64,000 bases of DNA from Sutcliffiella sp. FSL R7-0096. GTDB lineage: Bacteria; Bacillota; Bacilli; Bacillales; Bacillaceae_I. Of this stretch, positions 25,054-30,974 are shown in pieces. A model generated the notes under the pieces. The model saw only the letters and a program-made list of their open reading frames with translations. It did not search any database and was not told the DNA's origin. Position numbers and translations under genes: made by a program. Numbering within the stretch: position 1 is the first letter of the stretch; each line of letters opens with the position of its first letter. Where the stretch lies: NCBI RefSeq assembly GCF_038595065.1, contig NZ_CP152003.1, positions 1,716,001 through 1,780,000 on the forward strand, given 5' to 3'.

Positions 25054-26094
25054 ATGAAAAAGAAAGTAATTGCTGGTGCCCTTGTAACTTCCTTTATGTT
25101 TTCTGGACATGCTTATGCGTCTGATTATACAGTTAAATCAGGTGACTCCCTTTGGAAGATTGCCACCAACAATCAGGTGACAGTAAGCAATATCAAGACG
25201 TGGAACAACCTGAAAAGTGACCTTATTTTCCCCGGGCAAACATTATCATTGAAGGCGAATGGATCAGGCAACACGCAACCTGCCCCAACCCAACCTGCCC
25301 CTGCCCCAAGCCAACCGACGTCATCTACCTATACAATAAAAGCTGGAGACTCCCTGTCCGTGATTGCTAGAAATCATCAAACGACCCTAGCTAATCTGTT
25401 GAAATTAAATCCGTCCATCACAGACGTAAATAGAATTTTCATCGGGCAAAGAATTAATGTGGCTGCTGGTGCCCCATCCGCCCCAAGTCAGCCATCCCAA
25501 CCAGCACCAAGCCCTAGCAAACCAGCGCAAGCTTCAGGGACCTACACCATTAAAAGCGGGGACAACCTCTCTTCTGTTGCAAGCAGACACGGTGTAACTT
25601 TGAGCGCATTATTAGCTGTTAATCCTGCTATCAAGGATGCCAATCGTATTTCAATTGGACAAGTAATAACAATTCCGGGGAATGCAACAAGCGCACCTGT
25701 GGGTGATCAGTCTTCCTGGCAAGCAAAGGCGGATGCCATCATCGAAACAGGTAAAAAGTACATGGGTGCCAAGTATCTGTATGGAGCATCCACAAACAGA
25801 ACAGATGCGTTTGATTGTTCTTCCTATACAGTGAGAGTATTCGCTGAAAATGGTATCAGCCTTCCAAGAACCTCAGCACAGCAAGGAAATGTAGGAAAAG
25901 AAATTCCGCTAAGCGAAATCCGCAAAGGAGATCTTGTATTTTTCGATACAGAAGGGGATGGGGTAATCAATCATGTCTCCATCGTAATGGATTCCAACAC
26001 ACTTCTGCATGCTGCAACAAACACGGGTGTCGCATTCGCTTCTTATAATACATATTGGAAACCGAGAGCGGTCAAGGCGGTAAGGGTTTTATAG
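25054..26094 (+). CDS. LysM-NlpC/P60 peptidoglycan endopeptidase, LytE/CwlS-like
   Basis: A 346-residue secreted cell-wall hydrolase. A signal peptide (MKKKVIAGALVTSFMFSGHA) is followed by three LysM domains (about residues 25-68, 90-132, 162-205; each opens YTVKSGDSLW/YTIKAGDSLS/YTIKSGDNLS) linked by Pro/Ser/Gln-rich spacers, then an NlpC/P60 domain. Its catalytic Cys is in AFDCSSYT and the His in VINHVSIVM. Enzymes of this layout cut the D-gamma-Glu-diaminopimelate bond in peptidoglycan during elongation or cell separation. Architecture equals LytE of B. subtilis (three LysM), though orthology is not proven. GAGGAG lies before the ATG. Confidence 0.92.
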   Translation: MKKKVIAGALVTSFMFSGHAYASDYTVKSGDSLWKIATNNQVTVSNIKTWNNLKSDLIFPGQTLSLKANGSGNTQPAPTQPAPAPSQPTSSTYTIKAGDSLSVIARNHQTTLANLLKLNPSITDVNRIFIGQRINVAAGAPSAPSQPSQPAPSPSKPAQASGTYTIKSGDNLSSVASRHGVTLSALLAVNPAIKDANRISIGQVITIPGNATSAPVGDQSSWQAKADAIIETGKKYMGAKYLYGASTNRTDAFDCSSYTVRVFAENGISLPRTSAQQGNVGKEIPLSEIRKGDLVFFDTEGDGVINHVSIVMDSNTLLHAATNTGVAFASYNTYWKPRAVKAVRVL

Positions 26095-26656: not shown

Positions 26657-26784
26657 TGTTTACAAAGGTCTTTTCTGGATTAATCATCCTATTCGAAAAA
26701 TATAAACAATTATAAATTCAACTTCTATAAAATGGTATACTAAGGGCAAAGAGAGAAAAGATGTATAAAAAGGGTGAAAAGAAT

Positions 26785-28908
26785 TTGAATGAAGAGAGTC
26801 TTATTATCAAAGAGATAGTAGCTGGTAAAAAGGAAAAATATGACCAAATCATAGAACACTATAAAGATCATATATATGCCATAGCCCTCTGGGTCACTGG
26901 CAATAAGGAAGATGCAGAAGGTCTGGTAAAAGAGGGGTTTTTGGAGGCATATAAAAAGTTAGATACATATGAAGAATCTTCTTTGTTCACAGAGTGGCTA
27001 TATGAACACTTTTTACCACTTTTCAAAAAAATAGGGAAATCAAACAGCACCACTCCTGTTCAACTACCATTGCATAATCCCCATTATATTAAATTGGAAG
27101 AAGCGTTTCACACTCTTTCACATCAAGCCAAGTTGGAATTTCTGCTCAATCGAATACTCCATTTTTCCACAGCGAATCTTTCAAATCTAATGGAAGCGAG
27201 CAAAGAAGAAATCGAAGGCAGATATAAGAGCTCATTGATACATATCCGTGACTACACATTATTAGAAAGCTATCAAGAAAAAAGGGAATGCCATAGTCTC
27301 GAAGAATTGATTGCTTTCTATGACGATGAAGTCGAGGGGAAGGTGGAGGAGGAAATAAAAGACCATCTGGAATTTTGTCCAGATTGCCGGGAAGTGTTAG
27401 AAGGACTGAAAAAAGAAGAAGCCTCCCTGGATTTCGTCCTGGAGTTCCCTAAGTTAGAAGAATCTTTTAACAGGAAAGTACTCGATGAGCTTGTCCCTTA
27501 TACCCCTAAAAAACCAAAGCATCGAACTTGGAAATATCAGCTGAGTGTCCTGGGCATCCTTGGTGCGATCTTTCTATTCAGTATATTTATCATACCCAAC
27601 CTGAAGCCAGTGGCGGGGATGGTCACGACCTACATCAAGCATGGAACTATATATAATGTTTGGGTGGAAGGGACCTATGTGGCAACAGATAAAGATATTT
27701 CTTTTGAAGTAACGGAAGTGGAGATGGACTCCTTATATATGTACATCTATTATGATGTCAAAAAAGAAGGAGAAAAAGAATCAAGTACTCTAACCCATGA
27801 AGATATTGATTTTTATTCCTATAAACCCATAAGAATAGTGGATGAAACAGGTAAGGAGCACCCGGTACAAGTGACTGCACCGGAGTACCTTCGTAACGGT
27901 CGAAAGGTGTTAGAGAAAGAAGGGGAGTACCGGCCTTTCTTTTTAGTATATATGAAGGATAAGGAAAAACTGCCAGATGAGTTTGACATAAAAATAAACA
28001 TAACTAATCTGCAATCTAAGTATGGAAGTTGGAAATTGGATATCCCAATCAGGTATGACAAGGTAGTGGATACTTCCGTGACTGTTGCCTTGAATGAAGA
28101 AATGAACATTGAAGATAAAATGATTTTGGAGTTTATGGATGTTACCTACAGTAAACACGGAAGCAGGTTTAGGTATAACATTAGACGTACGGATGAAGAA
28201 CGGGATAAATTACTTGCAGAGCTTAAAAAGTATGATCAAGAATACAGATTGCAGGAATTTGAATTATGGCATCAGATCGGGTTGAATGGAATAACAAAAG
28301 AAGGAAACTATTTAGTTCCGATATATTTTCATGACATGTATATGTATGATTCAAATGAACCGATCGAAATGCACTTTTCCCATTATTATATGGATAACCA
28401 ATATTATGAAGTGTCTGGAAAGCTTGAAGATCCCATGCAGGAGCTTTATGCACAAATAATGGGGGTTTATTACCAAGAACCTGCATTCTTTTCCTTGGAA
28501 ATTCCACTTGAAGAAACAGAAAGAACACCGTTGGAAGGCGAAATCAACGGGTATGAGCTGTTAGATTACACTATTGTGGCAACAAAAGACCGGTTGGGTG
28601 ATGTCAGCAAGTATGAACTAATTATCAATGGGAAAAGTGACAATCTTAGCGGAGAGATAGGGTGGACCCTCATGGATGGGGAAGGGGAATATGTCCAATC
28701 CGAGGGGTGGTACCATTACGATGAACGGGAGAAGAAAGGAACAAAGAAGCTGCTTCATGTGGACATTACCACAAGGTATGAACAAGCTGCCTTTCCTGAA
28801 AAATTGGTCATTAAAGCGGATAACATATTTACGCAGTTAAAGAGCTTCGAGGGAGAGAAGTTCCCATTATTTAAAGAAGAGGAAAAAGCAGAAGGCGGAA
28901 CTGAATGA
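26785..28908 (+). CDS. Fused sigma-like / zinc-finger anti-sigma membrane protein, copy 1
   Basis: About 707 residues. Residues 10-85 resemble ECF sigma region 2 (GNKEDAEGLVKEGFLEAYKK, then FTEWLY), 105-160 a degenerate region 4, and 165-210 a zinc-finger anti-sigma motif (ECH...DHLEFCPDCR). One membrane helix (about 252-271) leads to about 430 extracytoplasmic residues that begin with a DUF4179-like segment (YNVWVEGTYVATDKDISFEV). Region 2.4 and the recognition helix are poorly conserved, so DNA binding is doubtful. TTG 26785 (after AAGGGTG) makes the N-terminus match the downstream paralogue; ATG 26761 is the alternative. TATACT before it suggests a sigma-A promoter. Its stop overlaps the next start. 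Sensing and signalling roles are inferred. Confidence 0.75.
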   Translation: MNEESLIIKEIVAGKKEKYDQIIEHYKDHIYAIALWVTGNKEDAEGLVKEGFLEAYKKLDTYEESSLFTEWLYEHFLPLFKKIGKSNSTTPVQLPLHNPHYIKLEEAFHTLSHQAKLEFLLNRILHFSTANLSNLMEASKEEIEGRYKSSLIHIRDYTLLESYQEKRECHSLEELIAFYDDEVEGKVEEEIKDHLEFCPDCREVLEGLKKEEASLDFVLEFPKLEESFNRKVLDELVPYTPKKPKHRTWKYQLSVLGILGAIFLFSIFIIPNLKPVAGMVTTYIKHGTIYNVWVEGTYVATDKDISFEVTEVEMDSLYMYIYYDVKKEGEKESSTLTHEDIDFYSYKPIRIVDETGKEHPVQVTAPEYLRNGRKVLEKEGEYRPFFLVYMKDKEKLPDEFDIKINITNLQSKYGSWKLDIPIRYDKVVDTSVTVALNEEMNIEDKMILEFMDVTYSKHGSRFRYNIRRTDEERDKLLAELKKYDQEYRLQEFELWHQIGLNGITKEGNYLVPIYFHDMYMYDSNEPIEMHFSHYYMDNQYYEVSGKLEDPMQELYAQIMGVYYQEPAFFSLEIPLEETERTPLEGEINGYELLDYTIVATKDRLGDVSKYELIINGKSDNLSGEIGWTLMDGEGEYVQSEGWYHYDEREKKGTKKLLHVDITTRYEQAAFPEKLVIKADNIFTQLKSFEGEKFPLFKEEEKAEGGTE

Positions 28909-30974
28909 TGGACGAGAAATATATAAGTTCTATTCTTGAAGGGAACACACTGGCTTTTGAACCGATCATCGATAAATATAAAAACAGGGTCTATTGCTTT
29001 GCCTTTTGGTTGCTAGGCGATTTTGTAGAAGCGGAGAAAGTGACGAAAGAATGCTTTATTGATATTTATGGGAAGTTAGAAACCTATCAGGATACCGAGT
29101 TTTTTTATGTATGGTTTTATCGGGAGATCTTAAAGCAATTAAAAGGAAATTCAGTTAAAGCTGATGAACATGCCTTCAGGGAGGAGGAACTGTTTAATCA
29201 TCATCCACGTCACGAGAAGGTGAAGGAATCGCTTCTTTCTTTGCCTCTGAATACTATATTGCCACTGCTTATCAACTATTTATTTTTAGAGTTGGATGAC
29301 AGACAGGCTGCAGATATTTTGGAAATGGGCATAGAAGATTATGAGGAATCCTTACTTTCTGCGAAAAAGACAGTGCGTTTGGGGGTTCTGGAGACCCCAG
29401 ATTACAAACGGAAGCCAGATTGCCTGGAAGAAGAGATGCTGATTCACTATTATAACGGTGAATGGTATCAGCAAAGGGAAATAGTGGAGGACCACTTGGA
29501 ATTCTGCCCGGCATGCAGGGCAGTCGTCGAAATTTTGGAGCGGGAAGAAAAAGTGTTAGAGCACGTCTTGCAAGTTCCAAAGCTTGATAGCGGGTTTAAC
29601 GAACAAGTCGTGAAGCAATTATCTCCATATGCCAAACCAGCATCAAATCGACGTTCTTGGAAATATCAACTCGGAGTTGTCGGTGGTATGGTGGCTCTGC
29701 TCATGGCTGGATTTGTGGTCATTCCTACCATTGCTCCATGGACCAAGATGGTTTCCAATTATTTAAATCATGGCAGCTTTTATAATGTTTGGGCAGATGG
29801 TACTTATACGGCAACCAGCAAAGATATCAACGTAGAAATAACCTCTGTGGATGTTGACCCATTGCACATGTTGGTCCATTACGAAGTTTTCAGTGACGTG
29901 AAAGATATAGATTATCTAGGTGAGAATGATCTTTTTTCCGTTCATGCCATGGATGAGGAGGGAAATACGTATCCGATGGAATCCGGCAAGCCTGTCTTGA
30001 TCGGTGAGATGTTGTCAAGTAGTAAAATCCCGGAGAGTTCAAATGATCGTTCTATATACGTAAAGGCTATAAATGAAGAAAGCCTACCAGATAAATTCAA
30101 CTTGCATTTCCATTTCCAACGTATAAAAGGCTGGGGTGGAGACTGGAAAATAGTCGTACCAATCCATTATGAAAAAGTTGTGCAAGATGTAGAAGTGGTG
30201 GAGTTGAATGAGGTAACAGTCATTGATGAAAAAATAGAAGTGGAGATTTTACGTCTGGAAAAAGGGAAGTATGGTAGCAGGTTGATATATGATGTCAGAT
30301 TGAAAGAAGAAGAAATCGAGCGTATTGAAACCAACTTTAAAAAGACGGATCCGAAAAATGACCGACAATTTCTCATGGGTCATCATGATGTATTTGCAGC
30401 AATCTTACTGGTAAATAATGAGGAAGAATACTTGGTTCCGATTGAATATCCTTCCATGAATAACAACATGCAAAAAGCGCCGTTTCAAATCGATTTTTCC
30501 AAGCTGTACGCAGATGAGAACTTTATGGATGTGAAAGGAAAAGAAACAGAAGGTGGTAAGTATTCGGCTGAAATAAGGACAGCTCATTATCTTGAACCCG
30601 GAGTCTATTCCATGACAGTGCCGATAGAAAAAACGACAGAAGAACCTTTAGACATCGACCTAGGTGGTTATACGATGAATAAGCTGTCGGTGACCAGGAA
30701 AGAAGGACTGCCCACGAAGGTCCTTCTCATAGGTGATAAAACACAAAACCACAAAGTGCGCACCTTTTATTGGGAGTTTGCAGATGGAAATGGGCAACGA
30801 TTGGATATTCACAATGGTAGCGGATATGATTGGTATAACCAAGAAGAAGGCCGTGAGATAGAATTGATTAACGTAAATGTCACTTCTAATGTCACACATT
30901 TAAAGATACAGGCTACTCAAATCTCCAATGATTATTTTTTTAGGGAAAAAGAATTTAGGATTCCTCTAAATTAG
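28905..30974 (+). CDS. Fused sigma-like / zinc-finger anti-sigma membrane protein, copy 2
   Basis: A 689-residue paralogue of the preceding protein, with the same order: sigma region-2-like segment (EAEKVTKECFIDIYGKLETY, then FYVWFYREI), weak region-4-like segment, zinc-finger motif (DCLEEEM...DHLEFCPACR; Cys173, His197, Cys201, Cys204), membrane helix (about 255-274) and a large outer domain opening with YNVWADGTYTATSKDINVEI. The start ATG overlaps the first gene's stop in ATGATGG, so translation is coupled. Outer domains diverge more than inner ones, which suggests different ligands or partners. No separate sigma gene is adjacent. Confidence 0.75.
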   Translation: MMDEKYISSILEGNTLAFEPIIDKYKNRVYCFAFWLLGDFVEAEKVTKECFIDIYGKLETYQDTEFFYVWFYREILKQLKGNSVKADEHAFREEELFNHHPRHEKVKESLLSLPLNTILPLLINYLFLELDDRQAADILEMGIEDYEESLLSAKKTVRLGVLETPDYKRKPDCLEEEMLIHYYNGEWYQQREIVEDHLEFCPACRAVVEILEREEKVLEHVLQVPKLDSGFNEQVVKQLSPYAKPASNRRSWKYQLGVVGGMVALLMAGFVVIPTIAPWTKMVSNYLNHGSFYNVWADGTYTATSKDINVEITSVDVDPLHMLVHYEVFSDVKDIDYLGENDLFSVHAMDEEGNTYPMESGKPVLIGEMLSSSKIPESSNDRSIYVKAINEESLPDKFNLHFHFQRIKGWGGDWKIVVPIHYEKVVQDVEVVELNEVTVIDEKIEVEILRLEKGKYGSRLIYDVRLKEEEIERIETNFKKTDPKNDRQFLMGHHDVFAAILLVNNEEEYLVPIEYPSMNNNMQKAPFQIDFSKLYADENFMDVKGKETEGGKYSAEIRTAHYLEPGVYSMTVPIEKTTEEPLDIDLGGYTMNKLSVTRKEGLPTKVLLIGDKTQNHKVRTFYWEFADGNGQRLDIHNGSGYDWYNQEEGREIELINVNVTSNVTHLKIQATQISNDYFFREKEFRIPLN

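Follow-up and report, generated by a model that had tools for sequence, protein, structure and literature searches.

Tandem membrane proteins of Sutcliffiella joining a degenerate sigma-like part to a zinc anti-sigma domain: candidate one-chain receptors

Two fused genes and their domain layout

The 64,000-nucleotide stretch of the Sutcliffiella sp. FSL R7-0096 genome (4.9 Mb) referred to here as the window (contig NZ_CP152003.1, positions 1,716,001 to 1,780,000; G000:C1:1716001-1780000) carries two tandem open reading frames (ORFs), P1 and P2, which overlap by 4 bases and each encode one single chain. Both chains follow the same order of modules: a part resembling an extracytoplasmic function (ECF) sigma factor, an anti-sigma domain with the ligand pattern C..HxxxCxxC, one membrane helix and about 400 outer residues. 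These modules are genuine and well beyond chance expectation; the reading made earlier from the sequence alone, which had proposed tandem paralogues fusing sigma-like, anti-sigma, membrane and outer parts, was borne out by the ORFs, Pfam matches, ligands and hydropathy. The TTG at 26785, which that reading had already taken as the start of P1, is preferred over the first ATG at 26761 because it is preceded by a ribosome site, AAAGGGTG, conserved in the aligned relatives, and translation most likely begins there. The features of the locus are the following.

26733..26741, + strand: extended -10 promoter TGGTATACT, sigmaA-like, upstream of P1 (TGnTATAAT-like pattern)
26761-28908, + strand: P1 fused gene, ORF of 715 amino acids (aa), probable start TTG 26785 (ORF call, relatives alignment)
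26836..27039, + strand: P1 sigma region-2-like part, residues 26-93 (Sigma70_r2 33.3 bits; Foldseek; promoter- and core-contact residues lost)
27097..27264, + strand: P1 sigma region-4-like part, residues 113-168 (split-sigma alignment; four modelled helices, low confidence; recognition helix no longer basic)
27289..27492, + strand: P1 zinc anti-sigma domain, C177..H202xxxC206xxC209 and helix 4 (zf-HC2 20.3 bits, below cut-off; invariant ligands)
27532..27603, + strand: P1 membrane helix, about residues 258-281 (hydropathy)
27631..28905, + strand: P1 outer domain, about 425 aa, with a DUF4179-like start (DUF4179 19.6 bits, below cut-off; Foldseek 3fbq)
28905-30974, + strand: P2 fused gene, 689 aa (ORF call; overlap with P1)
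28953..29156, + strand: P2 sigma region-2-like part, residues 17-84 (Sigma70_r2 19.8 bits, below cut-off; model compared with sigmaE region 2)
29217..29396, + strand: P2 sigma region-4-like part, residues 105-164 (modelled helices, low-to-moderate confidence; alignment)
29421..29624, + strand: P2 zinc anti-sigma domain, C173..H197xxxC201xxC204 (ligand alignment)
29664..29744, + strand: P2 membrane helix, about residues 254-280 (hydropathy)
29763..30971, + strand: P2 outer domain, about 403 aa, DUF4179/DUF5643-like (DUF4179 18.5 and DUF5643 19.3 bits, below cut-offs)

With Pfam cut-offs of 24 bits for Sigma70_r2, 22.2 for zf-HC2 and 30.1 for DUF4179, the region-2 match of P1 is above its cut-off and that of P2 below it, the zf-HC2 scores of both chains (12.7 bits in P2) and their weak DUF4179 matches fall short, and the sigma4-like part of P1 and P2 has no Pfam match. 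The top NCBIfam match of both is SigW, across region 2, and a few weaker sigma models extend into region 4 (P1 14-158, P2 3-164). Hydropathy gives one clear hydrophobic helix in each chain; a second, weaker hydrophobic stretch lies within the sigma4-like part of P2 (residues 110-128, window 29232-29288, mean hydropathy 1.74) and perhaps touches the membrane. P1 and P2 are 44% identical in the anti-sigma domain, 30% in the outer part and 27% in the sigma-like part, and P1 shares 88% and 78% identity with its counterparts in two Sutcliffiella (Bacillus) horikoshii strains.

AlphaFold2 models, built from six sequences, were compared with known structures by Foldseek, whose matches are support for a sigma fold and not proof of it, since Foldseek also uses sequence. 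The top match for both models was the SigW chain of its complex with RsiW (5wuq; E 3.7e-4 and 3.8e-4). Sigma region-2 structures were matched with TMt of 0.66-0.81, root-mean-square deviation (rmsd) of 1.5-3.3, high probability and weak E-values; the P1 model reached TMt 0.66-0.75, and the P2 model TMt 0.68-0.81 with rmsd 1.6-1.8 against E. coli sigmaE region 2. An absence of sigma fold in residues 1-165 is thus not what the models show: the sigma2 fold is present, and the sigma4-like part is modelled as four helices, at low confidence. The seventh-ranked match of P1, which appears to come from the outer part of the model, is 3fbq (E 8.2e-3), the outer domain of a DUF4179 anti-sigma (PMC6066255).

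The fused family compared with its split relatives

Among relatives, 40 fused ORFs were recovered, spread over 18 genomes of the host's family and one of them (P2 of G006) shortened, and a profile search placed the fused family in all 18 genomes and in all three genera. Outside the host's family, none was full-length among the matches listed from 397 order genomes, 17 belonging to the family, and from 398 of the phylum, full scoring being limited to the two best candidates per genome. The zinc ligands (C177, H202, C206 and C209 in P1 numbering) and the motif HLEFCPxCR are invariant in the 40 fused chains. Domain matches at E <=0.01 were obtained for Sigma70_r2 in 27 chains, DUF4179 in 24, zf-HC2 in 20 and Sigma70_r4_2 in 4, the last being found in all 12 split sigmas described below. 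The 40 chains form one clade of a 60-row tree (99/88), within which P1-type (16 rows) and P2-type (12) chains are nested clades. Recurrence of the fused frame in so many ORFs and genomes rules out that the fusion is a sequencing error.

Split homologues, in which overlapping genes encode the sigma (about 188 aa) and the anti-sigma (about 500 aa), are present in 10/18 genomes. One of these sigma genes (G007:C7:369324-369883) lies in two frames, through breakage or assembly error, beside an open anti-sigma frame. The pair is absent from the other eight genomes, all carrying fused genes, which rules out that the latter depend on it. Nor was a separate sigma gene cognate to the fused proteins found among these genomes: the homologous split sigma has its own adjoining anti-sigma and is missing from those eight. 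In G005 (L046:5811-10128), a canonical split pair immediately precedes the fused gene, perhaps in what is the ancestral arrangement.

Residues are numbered hereafter on the split sigma of the window's genome (G000), and those that we take to face promoter or polymerase were assigned partly from known sigma structures. Fused chains were compared with 12 split sigmas, 10 from nine genomes of the host's family and two from outside it (G024, G040). Residues present in 12/12 split sigmas have nearly vanished from the 40 fused chains, in region 2.4 (N80 0/40, D84 0/40, R87 2/40), in region 4.2 (H164 and R165, 0/40 each) and at the core-polymerase-facing positions of region 2.2 (Q51 2/40, D48 1/40). 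Core positions are mostly retained, namely F54 in 37 chains, Y58 in 34, L61 in 38, W73 in 36, L127 in 33 and L136 in 34. Mean net charge drops from +5.1 in split sigmas to -0.55 in fused chains over the 4.2 segment, and from +3.75 to +0.72 over regions 2.3-2.4. Position classes were also mapped to E. coli RpoE (31 DNA-facing, 64 other and 14 anti-sigma-contact positions), the promoter- and polymerase-facing assignment resting in part on PMC7406223 and the anti-sigma-contact list being taken from its Table 2. With positions treated as independent, the DNA-facing ones resemble the split consensus less than do the other positions (p=7.6e-5) or the anti-sigma-contact positions (p=0.014).

Selection has changed in character without being lifted. 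In seven genomes holding P1, P2 and the split pair (21 genome pairs), the split sigma has a mean identity of 81% and is more conserved than its partner's outer domain in 21/21 pairs. The fused sigma part, with 46% identity in P1 and 36% in P2, falls under the split sigma in every pair and is less conserved than its own outer domain in 17/21 (P1) and 20/21 (P2) pairs. Omega, pooled over close pairs (four for P1, three for P2, two for the split proteins), is 0.23 (0.18-0.30) for the sigma part of P1, 0.34 (0.26-0.46) for that of P2 and 0.08 (0.05-0.11) for the split sigma; in the fused chains the outer domain has the lowest value of the three parts (0.15 and 0.19). On these sequence measures the fused sigma part is relaxed and altered, without decay, and purifying selection persists. 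Values so far under 1 speak against its being a dying relic, a reading rejected on that account.

Promoters also set the two groups apart. Among the 28 fused genes with their own upstream region, i.e., not second of a pair, 25 have an extended -10 site of the TGnTATAAT type (shuffled mean 3.3), as against 0/12 split genes, and none has an ECF-type promoter (TGAAA[TC]-N15-18-CGT), a feature usual for ECF sigma genes though no strict requirement. Upstream of split sigma genes, TGAAAT-N16-18-CGTTAT is found in 11/12, with TGAGAT instead in G005. The 12 second genes (P2) have neither promoter type, save one loose ECF-type match (strict 0/12) that lies within the end of P1 (L053) and is taken as chance. 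By the usual habit of ECF sigmas, the split sigma would itself read this promoter, in which case the autoregulatory loop is gone in the fused genes. Across the window's genome the strict split-sigma pattern matched one site, the promoter of the split operon itself, so that the search gave no connection with the fused locus.

A second fused family came to light through two order-level matches. A query with L107:6201-8261 (686 aa) finds matches at E 1e-15 in 66 of the 397 order genomes, and in 56 of these the match stays open from the sigma part through to the end; in this sample the host's family contributes none of the matching genomes. Its members include L107:6201-8261, L108:6396-8453 and loci L129-L160, at times with two copies. 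The 42 loci read gave 42 ORFs of more than 600 aa and three split sigmas. N80 is retained in 1/42 fused chains, R87 in 2/42 and R165 in 3/42, as against 3/3 split sigmas, and the 4.2 charge goes from about +5 (split) to +0.9 (fused); DNA-facing positions fall below anti-sigma-contact positions (p=0.013). In a 43-row tree of chosen rows, a single clade for the two fused sets is rejected (p-AU 1.5e-60), and the main fused family stands beside split pairs of its own genus (93/90). By this comparison the second family arose separately, with similar, somewhat weaker losses, and the fused design arose at least twice in relatives of Bacillus. A third fusion event is possible because two label changes are required to place the second family on the tree; the members L156:2216-4144 and L158:1940-3958, which stand apart from the others, perhaps represent it.

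The fused genes occupy one conserved site, with one, two or three copies. The gene adjoining them in the window (25054-26094), named by eye as a LysM and NlpC/P60-like cell-wall gene, recurs at the site in 16/17 relatives, an SDR gene in 15/17 and the next two genes in 17/17. Extra copies lie away from the site in five genomes; G016 has three in tandem there (L057:7554-14025) and two elsewhere (L065, L066). Near the fused genes of G017 and G011 (L058:9093-10839, L061:2452-3733), small ORFs, each with a neighbouring ORF, look sigma-like by eye and have no BLAST similarity to the fused genes.

A receptor that no longer transcribes, and its alternatives

We favour, with a probability of about 0.5, the reading that P1 and P2 are single-chain membrane receptors, in which an ECF sigma was fused to its own zinc anti-sigma and the sigma part later ceased to transcribe, with mimicry acting in cis. 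The case is built from sequence comparison: the fusion, the loss of contact residues, the retained core, purifying selection, the absence of an ECF-type promoter and a separate, parallel origin in other Bacillales. Together these suggest a signalling route without direct gene activation any longer. They also agree with the sequence-only proposal of a sigma mimic in place of a working sigma, as promoter- and polymerase-facing residues are lost relative to split sigmas, the ECF-type promoter is absent, and fold and selection are retained. The pseudo-sigma would plug the anti-sigma domain of its own chain, and such self-occupation, likewise proposed earlier, is plausible. An outside signal acting on the DUF4179-like outer domain could open this cis clamp, by a change of shape or by cleavage near the membrane as in RsiV, perhaps by signal peptidase. 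The freed anti-sigma domain might then hold a real sigma or, alternatively, the freed pseudo-sigma might draw off another anti-sigma. Such a receptor would act by switching partners instead of by transcribing directly, and the partner need not be the split pair, because 8/18 genomes lack it. That Bacillales repeatedly made one-chain receptors of this kind, whose non-transcribing pseudo-sigma gates the attached anti-sigma domain and is wired to an outside sensor, is a more tentative proposition, somewhat short of an even chance.

Several observations weigh against the receptor reading. Mean pLDDT is 57 for the whole of P1 and 67 for the inner part of P2, with sigma4 of lowest confidence; the fit to SigW over the whole sigma part is loose (rmsd about 10, TMt 0.51-0.57), and the arrangement of domains is for that reason unsupported by the models. 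Some basic residues persist in the fused chains (R171 26/40, K167 14/40), C82 of region 2.4 is retained in 39/42 chains of the second family, and DNA-facing positions of that family are not clearly below its other positions (p=0.2). Anti-sigma-contact positions had been predicted to be the best conserved of all; the second family bore this out (p=0.021) and the main one did not, as they are there no better conserved than the remaining sigma fold (p=0.52). Fused chains of the main family have also lost the R149-type contact with helix 1 of the anti-sigma, so that a tight canonical clamp is unsupported.

Four other readings were weighed. The outer domain might be the functional part, binding or protecting a cell-wall target, with the sigma/anti-sigma part a mere folded cytoplasmic anchor; the low omega of the outer domain and the LysM-NlpC/P60-like gene at the site, in the window and in nearly all relatives, speak for this, yet the invariant zinc ligands and HLEFCPxCR motif and the purifying selection on the inner parts exceed the needs of an anchor, and we consider it unlikely. 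More doubtful still is a constitutive anti-sigma whose target in trans would be the split sigma paralogue or SigW, the fused sigma part being a dying relic. The anti-sigma motif is indeed intact, the split operon occurs in the ten genomes noted above (with one broken sigma frame) and directly upstream of the fused gene in G005, and a SigW-like sigma is present in 18/18 genomes; fused genes nevertheless occur where the split pair is missing, and the omega of the sigma part is far under 1.

A working membrane-held sigma, whose N-terminal part would be freed by signal-induced proteolysis and direct transcription as in IutY, has in our view a small chance of being correct. A single chain likewise holds the sigma, the membrane helix and the anti-sigma of IutY, ECF52-type fusions share the order of sigma, zinc finger, membrane helix and outer part, the sigma part is under purifying selection, and part of the basic residues of region 4.2 persist, R171 above all. 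What keeps this from being the leading reading is the loss of the promoter- and core-contact residues in nearly all 40 homologues, of the basic recognition helix and of the ECF-type promoter (0/28), to which is added a conservation under that of the split sigma in 21/21 pairs. The sequence-only reading had further suggested that P1 and P2 could act as a heterodimeric sensor, and their genes are adjacent or overlapping in 12/16 genomes of the genus; P1-type genes occur without P2 in G005, G009, G011 and G015 (4/16), however, and the P2 copy of G006 (L047:8983-11034) is broken into ORFs of 590 and 87 aa. An obligatory heterodimer, very improbable on these grounds, was rejected with P2 absent or shortened in 5/16 genomes.

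If the receptor reading is true, a pseudo-enzyme-like class would be added to bacterial signalling, made of one-chain receptors that would modulate other sigma factors through partner exchange. Fusion of a sigma to its inhibitor followed by loss of the gene-switching residues would then have taken place at least twice separately, with the domain maintained by selection (in the measurements, which cover the main family). Sister genomes with split and with fused homologues constitute a natural experiment separating anti-sigma-contact residues from those for polymerase and promoter. They also carry a warning, as a sigma-70 region 2 match probably does not make a sigma factor of every protein that has one; conversely, one-chain receptors could escape sigma-factor surveys because their sigma part scores poorly.

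Relation to known systems

The anti-sigma part of IutY from Pseudomonas putida (ECF243) is presumably of the FecR type, for which P1 and P2 have no Pfam match up to E 1. Like P1 and P2, IutY holds an N-terminal sigma, a single membrane helix and an anti-sigma in one chain (PMC5411451); unlike them, its sigma becomes active once Prc/RseP have cut the chain, and its anti-sigma part lies in the periplasm, whereas P1 and P2 have lost the promoter and core residues and carry a zinc-type anti-sigma domain that precedes the membrane helix. ECF48, ECF52 (SCO4117) and ECF53 (Actinobacteria) also fuse a sigma to a zinc-finger domain and membrane helix or helices, SCO4117 with an outer part as well (PMC8999054). 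They differ in that SCO4117 is described as a sigma factor having effects in vivo, and in belonging to another phylum; the likeness drawn is one of described architecture. The sigma parts of IutY and of ECF48/52/53 are active or thought active (PMC5411451, PMC8999054). The sequence-only statement that sigma and anti-sigma are normally separate is incomplete in view of these known fusions.

PhyR of Alphaproteobacteria shares with P1 and P2 a sigma fold whose regions for binding promoter and polymerase are degenerate, and its sigma-like domain titrates an anti-sigma (PMC8103513). PhyR is, however, a response regulator acting in trans on NepR, whereas the mimic of P1 and P2 is joined in cis within a membrane protein, and neither has a Pfam match to a receiver domain up to E 1. 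RsiV and other DUF4179 anti-sigmas (ECF30) resemble P1 and P2 in the DUF4179 start of the outer part beside the membrane helix (PMC6066255); they are separate from their sigma, unlike P1 and P2, whose DUF4179 scores remain under the Pfam cut-off. RsiV is cleaved by signal peptidase (PMC6066255, PMC8844934), and RsiP has no DUF4179 (PMC8844934). Closest at hand, the split pair of the same genome (C1:4532346-4534383) is homologous to both halves of P1 and P2 and has an anti-sigma with HLEFCPxCR; it differs from them in its separate genes, intact sigma contact residues and ECF-type promoter.

In the open-access literature searched, neither a degenerate sigma fused to an anti-sigma nor any mention of DUF5643 was found, the 2021 ECF reclassification (10.1093/nar/gkaa1229) lying beyond the reach of the search. 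Membrane fusions and sigma mimicry are each known from other systems, and P1 and P2 join both.

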